Position numbers and translations under genes: made by a program. Below, piece after piece: positions 3,233-37,840 of a DNA stretch of 38,967 bases. The DNA lies in the NCBI GenBank assembly GCA_002869205.1, contig PKTJ01000053.1:1-38967 (forward strand), in the 5' to 3' direction. The DNA is from Candidatus Parcubacteria bacterium. Lineage in GTDB: Bacteria; Patescibacteriota; Patescibacteriia; Magasanikbacterales; UBA922. The notes beneath the pieces were generated by a model, which saw only the letters and a program-made list of their open reading frames with translations, was not told the origin of the DNA and made no database searches. Every line of letters begins with the position of its first letter. Positions within the stretch are counted from its first letter, which is position 1.

Positions 3233-3277
3233 GGGGTGGCTAACGGGAATTCCTGCCTGCCGGCAGGCAGGGAACCC
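3233..3277 (-). repeat. Broken tRNA-His copy, 3' (T-arm/acceptor) portion interrupted by a 20-bp palindrome
   Basis: GGGGTGGCTAACGGGAATT...GAACCC matches 3304-3328, with CCTGCCTGCCGGCAGGCAGG inserted. Confidence 0.8.
3252..3271. repeat. 20-bp perfect palindrome CCTGCCTGCCGGCAGGCAGG
   Basis: Self-complementary sequence, inserted relative to the intact tRNA-His copy. Confidence 0.9.
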
Positions 3278-15631: not shown

Positions 15632-17050
15632 TTATGATTCCACCTCTTCCCATGAAATCAATTCATACGTACTCCCTACGGGAAATCCAGGAGGTGGATA
15701 ATATTTCAAATTCCCATCATAAATATGATTGGTGTATTCAAAACCCGAAACAACATTTCCCCATCCATTCACATATTTCCAACCACCACCTGCATATGAG
15801 ATCTGTGATCCAAAAAAGGTCAGAGAATCTTTGAGACCGTTTGGATTTTCACTTGGATTGTAATAAGGGGTATAAATACTACCAAACTGGGATAATGCAG
15901 CAGCATTTATTTCCATATCCACAGGAACTTCGTATGGAATAACGATATCGCCCTGAGAAATAATACCTATCACATCGTCACTGGACTTTTCATGATATAA
16001 CAAATTCCCATTAATAAATGCTGTTTTGTAATTTCCCTGCACCGGAAAACGACCAACACCAATACTCACGCGCCCATCCACGGTACCGTCAATCCACACA
16101 TCATCCTCTACAAAAATCGCACCGTTTGCTGGTATGTTGTATGTATCTATGAATGTCTGTGAACCTATATCATAACAATATACATCCCCACTCCAATACC
16201 ACTGGTGCCAACGCCTTCTCCACCTACCATCACCATAGTAACAGTCTTTGGAATTGACCTTATACAAATTAAACTGCGTTCCACTAAATACCATATGCCA
16301 CCCTTCATCCCCCGAAGAGGTGAGATGAATACCTCCGTCATCTGCAATATCACGAATAGCAGCTAGGTCAGCACTAACAGAAAAGAAATCAATTGCGGGG
16401 ACAGGGTATTGCCAAAAAGATTTTGGGCCACCACCACCCCAAACACCATCATGCCATTGATTGAGATATTGATATCTGTCCTTTGCACTCCTCACCCACG
16501 AATCTGACGTACCATCAAAACGTATACCGCCATTCGAATGAACCGTACCATGCACTTCGGTCGTAAAACTAAAATTCATACTAGAATTTTCCAAAAATAC
16601 ATAATCGGTAAGTGCCGGAAAACCAAGACGAACTTGTAGTGTGCGTTTCGAATCAGGTTGCTCCAGAGTCCAACCAGTGGAGCGCACCATTACTACAGAA
16701 CTTCCCACAAGAGGCTCATCGATTTCCAGAGAATAATACCCTACAAGATCTCCATCCTTATCATAATATTCATGAACATATGGACCGTCGAGCAAAGTAC
16801 CGTCCTTGTAATCTGTCGGATTGTGAGCAAGGTGCCATCTATAATAATTAACCCCCGCTTCTGCAATATGAAAAGCAGAATCACCGCGATACACACGCGT
16901 AGAAGCCCTGTGTTCAAAAAGTGCATATCCAGACACCCCAAGGACAATAATCGTAAATGATATTGCCCCAAACACCATGACAAAGACGATCATAGATCCT
17001 CTGTGTGATAGGTGTAATTTTCTATATATATTTTTCAACCAACAAAACAT
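15632..17050 (-). CDS. PilX-like pilus-assembly/secreted protein
   Basis: N-terminal RGSMIVFVMVFGAISFTIIVLGVSGYALFEHRAS...AFHIAEAGVNYYRWHLA pattern; located with prepilin genes. Confidence 0.6.
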   Translation of the reverse strand: MFCWLKNIYRKLHLSHRGSMIVFVMVFGAISFTIIVLGVSGYALFEHRASTRVYRGDSAFHIAEAGVNYYRWHLAHNPTDYKDGTLLDGPYVHEYYDKDGDLVGYYSLEIDEPLVGSSVVMVRSTGWTLEQPDSKRTLQVRLGFPALTDYVFLENSSMNFSFTTEVHGTVHSNGGIRFDGTSDSWVRSAKDRYQYLNQWHDGVWGGGGPKSFWQYPVPAIDFFSVSADLAAIRDIADDGGIHLTSSGDEGWHMVFSGTQFNLYKVNSKDCYYGDGRWRRRWHQWYWSGDVYCYDIGSQTFIDTYNIPANGAIFVEDDVWIDGTVDGRVSIGVGRFPVQGNYKTAFINGNLLYHEKSSDDVIGIISQGDIVIPYEVPVDMEINAAALSQFGSIYTPYYNPSENPNGLKDSLTFFGSQISYAGGGWKYVNGWGNVVSGFEYTNHIYDGNLKYYPPPGFPVGSTYELISWEEVES

Positions 17051-17673: not shown

Positions 17674-19449
17674 TTACAAAGAAGTAAGCTCGGCGACCAA
17701 CACCATATCATCGCTCACAGATACCGTAGTTTGATATGTCTGATATCCACTTGCCTGAATTTCTACTGAATGATCTTCTTCAGAAAGACCACCAAAGTAT
17801 GCTTGCCCTGGTGGTGTACAACTATTTGTATATGTCAAAGAAACATCTGACAGTGTTGGACTGACACTCACATCATCAGTATGAAAATAAGCCTTGTATC
17901 TCACAAACTGATCATCATCATGAATCTCATGCAACACCTGTGAGTCAGCTGCATAGTAAGTTGCAGATGTTCAATCAGGACCCAAATATTCCCAAGATGC
18001 CGGACTACTCGAGACACTCGATGCAATCTGAAAACGCAACGCGTCCGGGCCTGCCTCTACTGGCTGTGCAAGTGATTCCCATTCAAGTGACACATATTGT
18101 GCCTGGGTACCAACGTCTATAATTGATGACTCAAGTGTACCATTGGCAACATACGATCCTGCAACATCTATCAACGTGACATCTCCTGGAGAGGACAGCA
18201 CATCTACGCCACTACCAGTCCAATACTGCGTAGTATCCGTAAACAAATCCTGACCAGAGCCACCTGACCAATCTGTCTGGCGCACACTCCCTACACCACT
18301 CAAAATATTTTCATCAAAACTGGTAGACGTCACATGTACTTGTGCGTTAGCAATAGGTTGACCACTGTCTGACACCATTACGAGCAGAGAATGAGCAGTG
18401 TCTGGACCCACAACTAATTGTATTGGCTGGGTAACACCTGGATTTAAGGCGAATGGAACATCAGGAATAGTACCGATAAGATCATATGAAGAAACCGCAA
18501 AACCATAATCATCCCACTCAAGAGAACTAAATGTATATGCACCACTACCGTCGGTTGCATACACATCGTCCACTTTATATACATCTGGATCGGTACTCAA
18601 TATTTTTGTACCACGTGCAGAAAACGAAACATTAGGTACCACAGAACATAGACTATTTATAGTTTCAATGGAAATACTTGAAGTAAGATCAATAGAAAAA
18701 CTGACTTCTGTAACATCCTGTGCCATTACCGATACAGGTGGTTTTGTTGGATTGGGAGTCGTGTCACTAATCGTCAAAGTGCTGTCAGTGGTATATCCTG
18801 TTTTTGAAACCGTAACATGATACGTACCAAGTCCTTCTGCCATATCAACGAGCCGCAGCATACCATCATTATCTGTCGTGTCAGTAAAGTCATATGTAGG
18901 ATCTGTGCTGGTAGAAAGTATGTGGACGGTAGCTCCTTGGACCGGCTGTACATTTGCATCAAACACTTCTATAAACAACGCACCATGCGCAGGGTCACCT
19001 TCTAAAAATTTCGGGGCAACGTATGTTTGCATAGACAACGGTTCACGCTGGTCACAGCTTACACATATCACACTCACGTCTACCAATTTATAATCTGCAG
19101 GAGCTAGATCTTGTGGATCGCCCCCAACCGTACCGTCATACGCATCATCTATATTACGCACAGTACGTGTAACCAAAAAATCGACATTATTTCTCGTCGT
19201 TGTCGTATTTCTATTGAGTAAGCCTGAAGGACTTCCATTAATAACACCCACATCATGAAAAGAAAGATTTCGTATCAATTCAATTTCTTCATTCAAAATT
19301 CCCGTTTCAAGAATTCTAATACGCGAACTGTATACTATCTTGAAGACAAGCTGCGTACCACCATAAATACCAAGTGCAAACAACAAAAATACAGCGATTG
19401 CTACCACCGCCTCTACGAGTGAAAAAGCTTTTTTGTTGACAGGCAACAT
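17674..19449 (-). pseudogene. Prepilin-like N-terminal protein with carboxypeptidase-regulatory-like repeats, interrupted by a single in-frame TGA (17962-17964 region)
   Basis: ORFs 17971-19449 and 17674-17937 are in one frame: ...ASWEYLGPD-TGA-TSATYYAADSQVLHEIHDDDQFVRYKAYF...; N-term FSLVEAVVAIAVFLLFALGIYGG. Confidence 0.75.
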
Positions 19450-34113: not shown

Positions 34114-35052
34114 TTATTCCACAATCGATTTCAATTCATATCCAAATATCTTACTTGCACGTTTCATATAATCCTCAACATTGTCTTGAAAATAAGGAGG
34201 ATATTGTGACTGGATCTTCCCAATGACGTAGTAAGCAACCGCCATGAGTGTACCATAATCAGCATTCTTAGGAAGTGGTATAGACAATCGAGCATCTTTC
34301 ACACCATAATCCTTATTTTTATAATCAAAACTTATAAAACATTCTTTGGGAGAAAGAACCACGTTTTTTGCATGCATACACTGATCCACAGTAAACACAC
34401 GTCCTGAAATTTCTGGCTGCAAAATCTCATCAAACTTTGTGAGAAACATATCTCGAATCGTATCAAACTTACTTGGCAAAATAAAATAATACGAATCATA
34501 ATCAGCAAAATTATCTGGTATAATGTTATCAATTTTTTTCTGTAAAAAATTATAAATCTTTTTTGGATCCTCCCCTGTATGACCCAAAATCATACCCATG
34601 TAGGTACTTGTGTTATATGTATATGGTTCACGATTTTTGGGAAACACAAAAAACTTATCATCATCAATATATTTTTTAGCAGAAGCATTCACATTATTTG
34701 TGAGAAGTCGTGTTTCTATTTTTTTCTTTTTAAAAAACTCTGACATCTCAATTGCATGTTTACTTCCTGATGCAGAAATAATAATCACCCCATCAATACC
34801 TGAATAATTTTCAAACTTTTGTTTGTAATCACTCTCATTTGCAAACACTGCTTCGGCATTTTCAAACAAAATTTTTCCGGTAAAAAATGCATTAACACTC
34901 CCGACTACCATGGGTTTTTTATAATTTCCCAAATCAAGCGTTGGTAAACCCTCTGACATAAATAATTCCAGCGCACCAAGTGTCACAATGTCTAAGTTTG
35001 GCAAAGAATTAATATCAAATGTTTTTAACATATCTAGGTGTGGTGTTTTCAT
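34114..35052 (-). CDS. SIS (sugar isomerase)-domain-like protein
   Basis: GVIIISASGSKHAIEMSEFFKKKKIETRLLTNN; internal start MKTPHLDM preferred over the ATG at 35064, which lies in a repeat-like sequence. Confidence 0.65.
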   Translation of the reverse strand: MKTPHLDMLKTFDINSLPNLDIVTLGALELFMSEGLPTLDLGNYKKPMVVGSVNAFFTGKILFENAEAVFANESDYKQKFENYSGIDGVIIISASGSKHAIEMSEFFKKKKIETRLLTNNVNASAKKYIDDDKFFVFPKNREPYTYNTSTYMGMILGHTGEDPKKIYNFLQKKIDNIIPDNFADYDSYYFILPSKFDTIRDMFLTKFDEILQPEISGRVFTVDQCMHAKNVVLSPKECFISFDYKNKDYGVKDARLSIPLPKNADYGTLMAVAYYVIGKIQSQYPPYFQDNVEDYMKRASKIFGYELKSIVE

Positions 35053-35057
35053 AACAG

Positions 35058-35087
35058 GTGTCATTCTGAGCGAAGCGAAGAATCTTT
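35058..35087. repeat. GTCATTCTGAGCGAAGCGAAGAATCTTTC dispersed-repeat-like element
   Basis: Imperfect palindrome ATTCT...AGAAT; resembles a sequence I recall being repeated in many metagenomic genomes (recollection, unverified). Confidence 0.45.
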
Positions 35088-35152
35088 CTTGGCAACGTTC
35101 TGGATAAATAAAGTAATAGTGTTTACAAGTATACCACTCTCAAAGCCAAATA

Positions 35153-35187
35153 AAAAATCCTCGAATATAGATCTCAAGGATTTTTTA
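35153..35187. terminator. Bidirectional terminator-like hairpin
   Basis: AAAAATCCT...AGGATTTTTT. Confidence 0.5.
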
Positions 35188-35220
35188 TAATCATCTACTT
35201 TCCTTTTTCAAGAAAACCAT

Positions 35221-36500
35221 ATGATCGACGGCCGGACGCAGAGCGTATCGCAGAAGCGAAACGTGCGCCGGCCGGAAAAGAGCGAGGCAGGGAGCCGGAT
35301 GGTGTCGCGACACGGGGTCGCGAATGCCCGAGCTCGGGTGATCGGTGCGCTACTCGCGCACGAGGGTGTTGGCGTCGATGGGGAAGGAGCCGACGATCGT
35401 CATGGGCGAGCCAGCAGAGTCCGTCCCACGCGCCTGCACCATCGTCAGCGAGGCCTGGATCGACGCCTGGGGCAGGAACTGGTCGGTGAGGTCACAGCGG
35501 ACCCAGACATTCTCCTGACCACCGGCCATGACCCAGATGGGCGTGATCCAGGAGGGGCCGACCTCGAAGCGGTAGACCCACTCGCCCTGGTTCTGGCCCG
35601 GGCTGATCATGAACGGGTACACGGTGGTCGCCCACATGTCGTACCCTACCATGATGTCACAGGCGCCGACGGCCTGCTGAGAGGCGACGCCCGTCACGCT
35701 GACACGCAGACCGAGCTTCCTGACCTCCGTATCCTCGAACTCCGCCACGAAGACCCACATCCCGAGACGGACGTCGTTCCCGATCGAAAACGTCCCGACC
35801 GGAGTGATCGTGGAGAGGACGACGTGCAGGTTGCCCTCCTGCTGGTAGAGCGGCAAACAGGAGCCTCCGTTGCACAGGAAGCCCTGCTCGCACTCCGCGT
35901 TGATGTCGCACCCGCCGATGGGCGTCCAGGCACAGATGCCACCGTAGTACCCACCCTTACTCGACGGCGGATTCGGATCGGGGACGCACTCGCCCACGAA
36001 GCCCTCTGCGGTGAGGTCAGGGCACATCAGCTCCGGGTCGTAGTCGAGAAGACCTGGCGCGCACATGTACGAGTACGCTCCACACGTACCGTCCATCAGC
36101 ATGTGATCGATGGTGCGCGGGTCTTCGTCGTCGCAGATCGGCTGACAGACGCCAGCCACACTGCCGTCCGACGGCATGTCGACGTAGAGACAGATGCCAA
36201 CCGCATCGCAGTCGGCGTCGCCGATGCAACGACCACCACATCCGAGCTCGCCGACGCAGTCGGTGTCGTCGCAGTCGGTCTGGCCGTCCAGGTCGTTATC
36301 GATGCCGTCGAAGCAGTACTCGACCACTTCATCCGGCTCGACAGGGACACAGTCCCCGCCGGTGTTGCCGAGCGCCAGAAGCGCCAGAAGCGCCGCGAGC
36401 GCGACCAGGCCCAAACGGACCTTTCGGTTTCTCATTGATTCCCTCCCAGAAAAAGAGATCGGAACAAAGCACGGACCTTCCGCACAAATAACCGACCCCT
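35221..36500. other. High-GC island of foreign composition
   Basis: Abrupt visible change from AT-rich to strongly GC-rich sequence and back; open frames on several strands, as expected of GC-rich DNA. Confidence 0.85.
35350..36435 (-). CDS. Secreted Cys-rich protein with MopE/Ca-binding-like DxDxDG motif (GC-rich, likely foreign)
   Basis: Signal-like MRNRKVRLGLVALAALLALLALGNTGGDC; EYCFDGIDNDLDGQTDCDDTDC; SD GGGAGGG upstream of ATG. Confidence 0.75.
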   Translation of the reverse strand: MRNRKVRLGLVALAALLALLALGNTGGDCVPVEPDEVVEYCFDGIDNDLDGQTDCDDTDCVGELGCGGRCIGDADCDAVGICLYVDMPSDGSVAGVCQPICDDEDPRTIDHMLMDGTCGAYSYMCAPGLLDYDPELMCPDLTAEGFVGECVPDPNPPSSKGGYYGGICAWTPIGGCDINAECEQGFLCNGGSCLPLYQQEGNLHVVLSTITPVGTFSIGNDVRLGMWVFVAEFEDTEVRKLGLRVSVTGVASQQAVGACDIMVGYDMWATTVYPFMISPGQNQGEWVYRFEVGPSWITPIWVMAGGQENVWVRCDLTDQFLPQASIQASLTMVQARGTDSAGSPMTIVGSFPIDANTLVRE

Positions 36501-36641
36501 TATCAAACCATGTATGACACCATACTTAGTATAATACACAGCTTGATAAAATATACATTCTATCTATAAAATACCACAAAACAATAGCATAACATACTAC
36601 GTATTGCCCCCACTGTCAAGACAAATAGACCAAAAATAACA

Positions 36642-36905
36642 ATTTGTATACAAAATCCTATACATTTGTGGATAAACCCGTGTATAACCATTAAAATCTG
36701 TGTAAAACTCAGTATCTACCCTTTCTATTATCCCCCTCTTTTTTTCTTTTTGATTTTTTCCACCAAGTTTTCCACCTTAATCACTCTATTTTGTATACAA
36801 AATCCTATACATTGTGGATAACTATGTGTAAAAGTACCCTCTTTTGGGGATAAAAAACATTATTTTGATAAAAAAACCTAAATGTATAAACTATATTATA
36901 CTTTT
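36642..36905. other. DnaA-box cluster / AT-rich origin-like region
   Basis: Perfect DnaA boxes (TGTGGATAA) at 36667-36675 and 36813-36821 within about 33-bp direct repeats; further box-like TTATACACG and TTTTACACA sites; AT-rich stretch follows. Confidence 0.55.
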
Positions 36906-36958
36906 ATTTTTGCTAAATAGACACTTTTTTAGCTAAAACTAGCCAATAATAGCCCCTA

Positions 36959-36987
36959 TTGACAGATTTGAAAAATAGTGGTATAAT
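36959..36987 (+). promoter_or_regulatory. Consensus sigma70-type promoter
   Basis: TTGACA-17 nt-TATAAT (both hexamers perfect). Confidence 0.85.
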
Positions 36988-36993
36988 ATATTT

Positions 36994-37345
36994 GTGATCA
37001 TTTAAAAATCACGACCGTCCACAATCATTGATTGCAAACGGTCGCTTACCCTCAACTACTGCTCATCTAAGCGAGAAATCGCTTAACAAACACCAAAATA
37101 AACAAAAATACACCGGTGACCTCACATTTCCCATAGCTGGTCGGACGTATACCGTCCTTGACTAGCACCGAGACCATCACCATTGAGCGGTACGAGGATG
37201 AATATCCCAGGTTTACCCTGGCCTTTCTCAAGTGTTCTGAGGACTCATCTGAGTTTTCAGAAAGCTTGAGAAAAACCGGACTCTGGGATAGTTAAAGGGC
37301 TCCAGCCATATAAACTACCCAGGGCTACGGATGCCCTTTTATTTT
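36994..37345 (+). ncRNA. Highly structured putative non-coding RNA of unknown class
   Basis: No ORF; consensus promoter; many strong stems (CGACCGT/ACGGTCG; TAAGCGA-GAAA-TCGCTTA; GCTGGTC/GACTAGC; TTTCTCAAG/CTTGAGAAA; TATCCCAG/CTGGGATA); terminator at the end. Confidence 0.7.
37321..37345 (+). terminator. Intrinsic terminator of the putative ncRNA
   Basis: AGGGC-TACGGAT-GCCCT-TTTATTTTT. Confidence 0.8.
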
Positions 37346-37448
37346 TGAAAAAATACCTCTCAACACAATCCCCCTACTTACTCTTGCTTTTTAAAGCATT
37401 TTTTTATATAATGCGTATATTCTATTGACTTTATTGACTGAAAATTTT

Positions 37449-37835
37449 ATGCCAAAAACAAAACTAAACCCACAATTTATCAAGACAATGAAAGAAACTT
37501 TGGAGACAGAAAAGGTTAAGCTTGAAACAGAACTCTCTAAATTCACTAAAAAAAATCCAAACGTAGACGGAGACTTCGAAGCGACGTATCCTGAGTATGG
37601 AGACAAGAGTGATGAAAATGCCCAAGAAATTACCCAATACCTCACCAACAAACCTCTTGAAATGCAACTTGAAAAGATGCTTCGTGATGTAAACAAAGCA
37701 TTGAAGAATATGGAAGACGGTTCATACGGTATGTGTAAATATTGTGACGAACCTATCGAAGAAAAGCGATTGGAAGCACGCCCAACATCGGGAGCATGTG
37801 TCAGTTGTAAAAAAACTCTCACCCAAGAAGTTTAA
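37449..37835 (+). CDS. TraR/DksA-type C4 zinc finger protein
   Basis: LEKMLRDVNKALKNMEDGSYGMCKYCDEPIEEKRLEARPTSGACVSCKK. Confidence 0.88.
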   Translation: MPKTKLNPQFIKTMKETLETEKVKLETELSKFTKKNPNVDGDFEATYPEYGDKSDENAQEITQYLTNKPLEMQLEKMLRDVNKALKNMEDGSYGMCKYCDEPIEEKRLEARPTSGACVSCKKTLTQEV

Positions 37836-37840
37836 TCTAT

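Follow-up and report, generated by a model that had tools for sequence, protein, structure and literature searches.

A GC-rich one-gene unit with conserved surroundings and an unalignable coding part in two sister genomes of Patescibacteria type

The usual view of Patescibacteria is that they live on host cells; which proteins determine this contact is, to our knowledge, largely unknown.

Single genes have been acquired horizontally by the small genomes of these bacteria, mostly from one another, as described in a survey that required donors to be within its dataset (PMC12455944). The transferred genes of that survey resemble the gene considered here in being single, of horizontal origin and placed in small genomes. 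On the other hand, GC-rich one-gene units with a conserved terminator and 3'UTR and a changed coding content do not figure in the accessible part of the survey. The gene lies in a window of 38,967 nucleotides, that is, the whole stretch of DNA analysed here, which is contig C52 of a 1.06 Mb genome (G000), of Patescibacteria type to judge by its size and gene content.

The island and its gene

Maximum-likelihood segmentation places a GC-rich segment at positions 35226–36421 of the window, with 65.4% GC inside, 36.6% outside and a log-likelihood gain of 160. The best 1-kb window has 64.9% GC, to be compared with the mean of 38.7% (sd 2.6%, maximum 44.3%) over positions 1–35000. The GC3 of the gene in this segment is 0.85, while the 40 other genes of the window have 0.315 ± 0.034, at most 0.38. 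An earlier note on this DNA had described an abrupt change to a foreign-type composition and a sharp contrast in codon usage with the neighbours; both descriptions are borne out, and the composition is of the foreign type expected of a recently transferred island. The island is a real feature.

Its open reading frame and GC3 define a gene on the minus strand (35350–36435) that encodes a Cys-rich, probably exported protein of 361 aa. The GC content at the three codon positions is 0.63, 0.46 and 0.85. An ORF of 405 aa on the plus strand was rejected as an antisense shadow of this gene, since GC is highest there at codon position 1, and the minus-strand gene is the only credible gene of the island. 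It is preceded by a candidate promoter read from the sequence, TTGACA-N17-TATGTT (36591–36619, minus strand), and by a 5' leader (36436–36590, minus strand) that contains the SD GGAGG at 36442–36446. The protein appears to consist of a signal peptide (residues about 1–25), an acidic double-disulfide motif (38–66) and a remainder, with 21 cysteines in total. The SD, the CFDGIDNDLDGQTDCDDTDC motif and the length, all given in the earlier note, are confirmed, and a signal-peptide-like N-terminus is present as well. Judging by these features, the protein is probably exported; it is most likely displayed or released and contacts another cell, and the gene probably codes for a surface or host-contact protein.

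The protein yielded no match in Pfam and PHROG searches. Searches of genome contigs from 84,980 species, of viral contigs, and of phages and plasmids revealed no close relative, and the test for a phage or plasmid gene gave no homolog in the phage and plasmid collections. In 380 class-level genomes the matches were limited to a short stretch around the acidic motif. The NF033662 profile matches the protein with one repeat (5.7e-7, 29.2 bits), under the 41-bit repeat cut-off, and the corresponding gene of the sister genome G001, considered below, matches Myxo_Cys_RPT just below the cut-off. One member of the family (G028) has a strong NF033662 repeat in a native protein of low GC, and in another (G030) the repeat is just under the cut-off. 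A repeat that native low-GC proteins of the family carry as well is no marker of a Myxococcota donor, and the donor that had been read from the motif was rejected: the profile is not diagnostic. The MYXO-CTERM C-terminal sorting tag (a short Cys motif, a hydrophobic stretch and a basic tail) is not seen in the C-terminus, ...SFPIDANTLVRE. The sequence pattern had raised the suspicion of a native C-terminal domain of Patescibacteria type; this was rejected as well, as phmmer with residues 193–361 returned only the protein itself from the fetched loci. The single-sequence structure prediction has a mean pLDDT of 35.5, and no use was made of the model.

The same site in a sister genome and other relatives

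The within-genus comparison rests on two genomes, that of the window and G001, a separate genome of the same genus. In the latter, contig C63 runs from the left-flank gene via the terminator into GC-rich sequence. On the other side, contig C56 leads from the conserved region with the DnaA boxes into a GC-rich gene, of which it has the start. Each of the two contigs stops inside GC-rich coding sequence, the middle being absent; from position, strand and composition we infer that they carry the two ends of one gene. Both AT-to-GC junctions recur at the same site, so the site is occupied in the closest relative, where a recent transfer should have left it empty.

The surroundings of the gene are conserved between the two genomes. 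The left-flank gene (34114–35064, minus strand), encoding a weakly HAD-like protein of 316 aa, shows 85% DNA identity and 87% amino acid identity. An AT-rich hairpin, by its fold the Rho-independent-type terminator of the island unit (35151–35189, minus strand), lies in a region of 78% identity. The GC-rich 3'UTR (35221–35349, minus strand) is kept with 79% identity (shuffle z 13.3). It has the same two-hairpin fold in both genomes (folding z −3.3 and −3.5), and the inner hairpin shows one compensatory U-A/C-G change. It occurs once per genome, no second copy having been found, and no dispersed recombination site was seen. The AT-rich right flank (36647–36990), with two DnaA-box-like TTGTGGATAA sites, is 85% identical. 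At the position equivalent to the candidate promoter, G001 has TTGACA-N17-TATACT, and the alignment of the promoter stretch exceeds chance by little (z 2.6).

Beyond the 3'UTR, at the coding boundary, the similarity stops. The 5' leader is unalignable (z 0.7), and so, essentially, are the coding ends (300–435 bp), whose z-scores of 2.0–4.6 are at or near chance. GC3 of the two G001 fragments is 0.84 and 0.88, and the N-terminus is in both species a signal peptide followed by a Cys-rich part; the proteins themselves resemble each other weakly (N part, shuffle p 0.0065; C part, 0.08). The earlier note had proposed a very recent acquisition. For the site this fails, as both species have the 3'UTR and the terminator in common; the coding part could be recent in either of them. 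The note had also named homologs of the same synteny and composition in relatives as evidence that would speak against a recent event, and here synteny and composition agree but the gene differs.

Among the other genomes compared, G010 lacks GC-rich sequence at the site. In G022 (contig C8; L027:7600–17300) the flanks of the island are about 10 kb apart, with further GC-rich genes between them. The two TTGTGGATAA sites, at 36666 and 36812, lie within 150 bp in a region of 28% GC, and the pattern makes this region a candidate replication origin. It adjoins an RNA-like region with inverted repeats (36990–37340). Of 39 genomes, 30 contain a match to the stretch 36500–37840, and these represent 29 of 34 genera; the match rests in part on the RNA-like region and in part on the next gene. 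Neither the 3'UTR nor the RNA-like region has a match in Rfam at the gathering threshold.

A second variable site was seen at 18612 of locus L060, which carries another exported Cys-rich gene. Its homolog in G001 (L093) has about one third identity, with a protein alignment score of 97 against 29 ± 5 for shuffles, and the nearby flanks retain 81–90% DNA identity.

Other GC-rich one-gene units

A pattern of GC3 runs has 3,635 matches per strand in the whole of G000, about 190 of them contributed by the window island. In a non-random sample (some contigs were picked for their hits), and with a permissive filter that admits a few spurious frames, 27 GC-rich ORFs were found in 373 kb of G000, 14 in 355 kb of G001 and six in 55 kb of G022. 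Eight of those in G000 have GC3 of at least 0.80, among them an M29 peptidase and a membrane pyrophosphatase. By these counts from sampled stretches, such one-gene inserts number dozens in these genomes. Hence the island is not single, as had been supposed, since the same genome carries many such units, and the statement that there is no other foreign gene holds for the window but not for the genome.

Two of the units of G000 are clean gains relative to G001: one of 1,008 bp between polA- and holA-like genes (names read from the sequence), and the M29 peptidase unit, 1,466 bp where G001 has 31 bp. These islands, in L061 and L062, are absent from G001 at their sites. A transposon with target-site duplication was considered for the L061 gain and rejected: the 8-bp overlap is an ambiguous alignment of AT-rich sequence with no clear duplication. 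The M29 aminopeptidase gene (L062:5066–6196, contig C44 of G000) has GC3 of 0.90 and is a gain of one gene; its 3' end carries a 17-bp GC-rich hairpin followed by an AT-rich terminator. M29 was found in three of the 59 genomes searched, including its own, the other two having 27% identity, and its best database matches (51–56%) are in Firmicutes and other unrelated phyla; therefore transfer into the lineage from outside is the best reading of this unit. The membrane pyrophosphatase gene (L205:3786–5867, contig C46 of G000) encodes 693 aa with GC3 of 0.82 within the low-GC genome.

The inspected units share the order of their elements: an AT-rich promoter-like stretch, an SD, a GC-rich ORF, usually a GC-rich hairpin, and an AT-rich terminator. 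Compared with each other, the islands have no substantial sequence in common. Separately, a perfect palindrome, CCTGCCTGCCGGCAGGCAGG, was seen at 3252–3271 of the window and at 16562–16581 of L061; copies are scattered over several genomes of the family, in some cases close to tRNA genes.

In G001, 22% of the sequence within 250 bp of contig ends is GC-rich, vs 1.8% of the interior, an excess of about 12-fold, while G000 shows none (3.8% at ends, 4.2% in the interior). ORFs at contig ends account for at least seven of the G001 cases (L024, L025, L093, L211, L212, L222, L228), and the others could in part be rRNA. Strain variation or GC-dependent coverage could cause the enrichment. It follows that such genes may escape notice in short-read assemblies or after composition-based binning.

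Explanations and comparison with known systems

The reading that we favour, with a probability of about 0.6, is that at a fixed chromosomal site with an inherited terminator and 3'UTR another gene of the same type took the place of the GC-rich body; its exported product would contact cells. The unit would be a complete one-gene transcription unit in a Patescibacteria-type genome, its terminator and structured GC-rich 3'UTR, and probably the promoter, being inherited within the genus. Incoming material, presumably DNA, would be taken up or transferred and would recombine at the conserved surroundings, so that in at least one of the sister species the 5' leader and ORF would be swapped for those of a different gene of the same type. 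The new ORF would be expressed from the local promoter, and its disulfide-rich product, as its sequence suggests, would be exported and would contact other cells. Replacement of the body is favoured because the non-coding neighbours are diverged by about 20–22% and the coding part is essentially unalignable. The second variable site, where a poorly conserved gene sits between well-conserved flanks, behaves in a similar way.

Had point mutation removed nearly all of the coding similarity, dN would have to be far above dS over the entire length of the gene. This weighs on the alternative of a vertically inherited ortholog, acquired once long ago and subject to extreme diversifying selection, with GC3 held by selection or biased conversion. 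As this alternative would have it, the two species agree in where the promoter lies, in the 3'UTR, in the signal peptide and in the Cys-rich layout, and the genes of the pair at the second variable site are clear homologs, with an identity of roughly one third. However, with neighbours changed by only about 20%, dN would have to be several times dS throughout, and GC3 of about 0.85 would be hard to keep in both species when the genes of the genome have 0.32; we consider this explanation unlikely. Two independent insertions of foreign genes at a hotspot beside the oriC-like region would agree with the other islands, which are clean intergenic gains, and with the site in G010. They are improbable, as the GC-rich 3'UTR immediately after the stop is 79% identical and the similarity goes no further than the coding boundary; this identity implies that at least the 3'UTR is of shared ancestry.

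The proposal of the earlier note, one very recent transfer whose source was a host resembling Myxococcota, draws on the GC content of 65%, the GC3, the NF033662-type motif and the match of the G001 gene just under the Myxo_Cys_RPT cut-off. It is hardly credible given that the sister species has the site occupied, the motif occurs in native low-GC proteins and no donor relative was found in the collections searched. As for the note's other suggestion, an assembly or binning chimera, the abrupt change of composition is what it would produce, but an independent genome shows both junctions at the same place, and the sequence is conserved through the left one; this makes a chimera very unlikely, the most improbable of the explanations.

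In a broader form, which we regard as possible but put forward tentatively, replacement of the body would be a habit of an episymbiont-type lineage: dedicated chromosomal expression shells (promoter, structured 3'UTR and terminator) in which one GC-rich gene for an exported Cys-rich protein is exchanged for another time and again, giving a variable-surface system fed by a high-GC gene pool. If such a system exists, it may be largely missing from metagenome-derived genomes, since contigs end at these genes in some assemblies. A fixed site at which exported disulfide-rich proteins turn over fast would be a direct candidate for host contact.

Several known systems share part of this organization. 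Integron and isolated attC cassettes also have one short ORF, a structured 3' element and exchangeable content, but the island units seem to carry their own promoters and are without a shared dispersed 3' site. The integron reading was rejected: the integron integrase TIGR02249 with its specific insertion exceeded the cut-off in none of 39 genomes, the hits in G000 itself being split around the insertion, and no 3' site common to cassettes was found. G000 does contain a 290-aa tyrosine recombinase (C19:7653–8450) that is integron-integrase-like without the specific insertion and has similar proteins in many relatives, and contig C5 of G040 has a near-threshold integron-integrase match (235 bits) with one stop codon.

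The Cys-rich surface proteins of myxobacteria (TraA, MYXO-CTERM) are similar in the signal peptide and the short Cys-rich, acidic disulfide repeats; the island protein differs in its sub-threshold repeat matches and the lack of the MYXO-CTERM tag, and the repeat occurs in low-GC proteins of the family too. Cassette loci of antigens and other surface proteins likewise have a fixed site, a variable coding body and conserved surroundings, the difference being that silent copies or a recombinase are not demonstrated for the island. In the literature collection that was searched, turnover of GC-rich content in a conserved regulatory shell is not reported. Transfer of single genes into Patescibacteria is already known; a conserved regulatory shell with turnover of its GC-rich content appears to be new.
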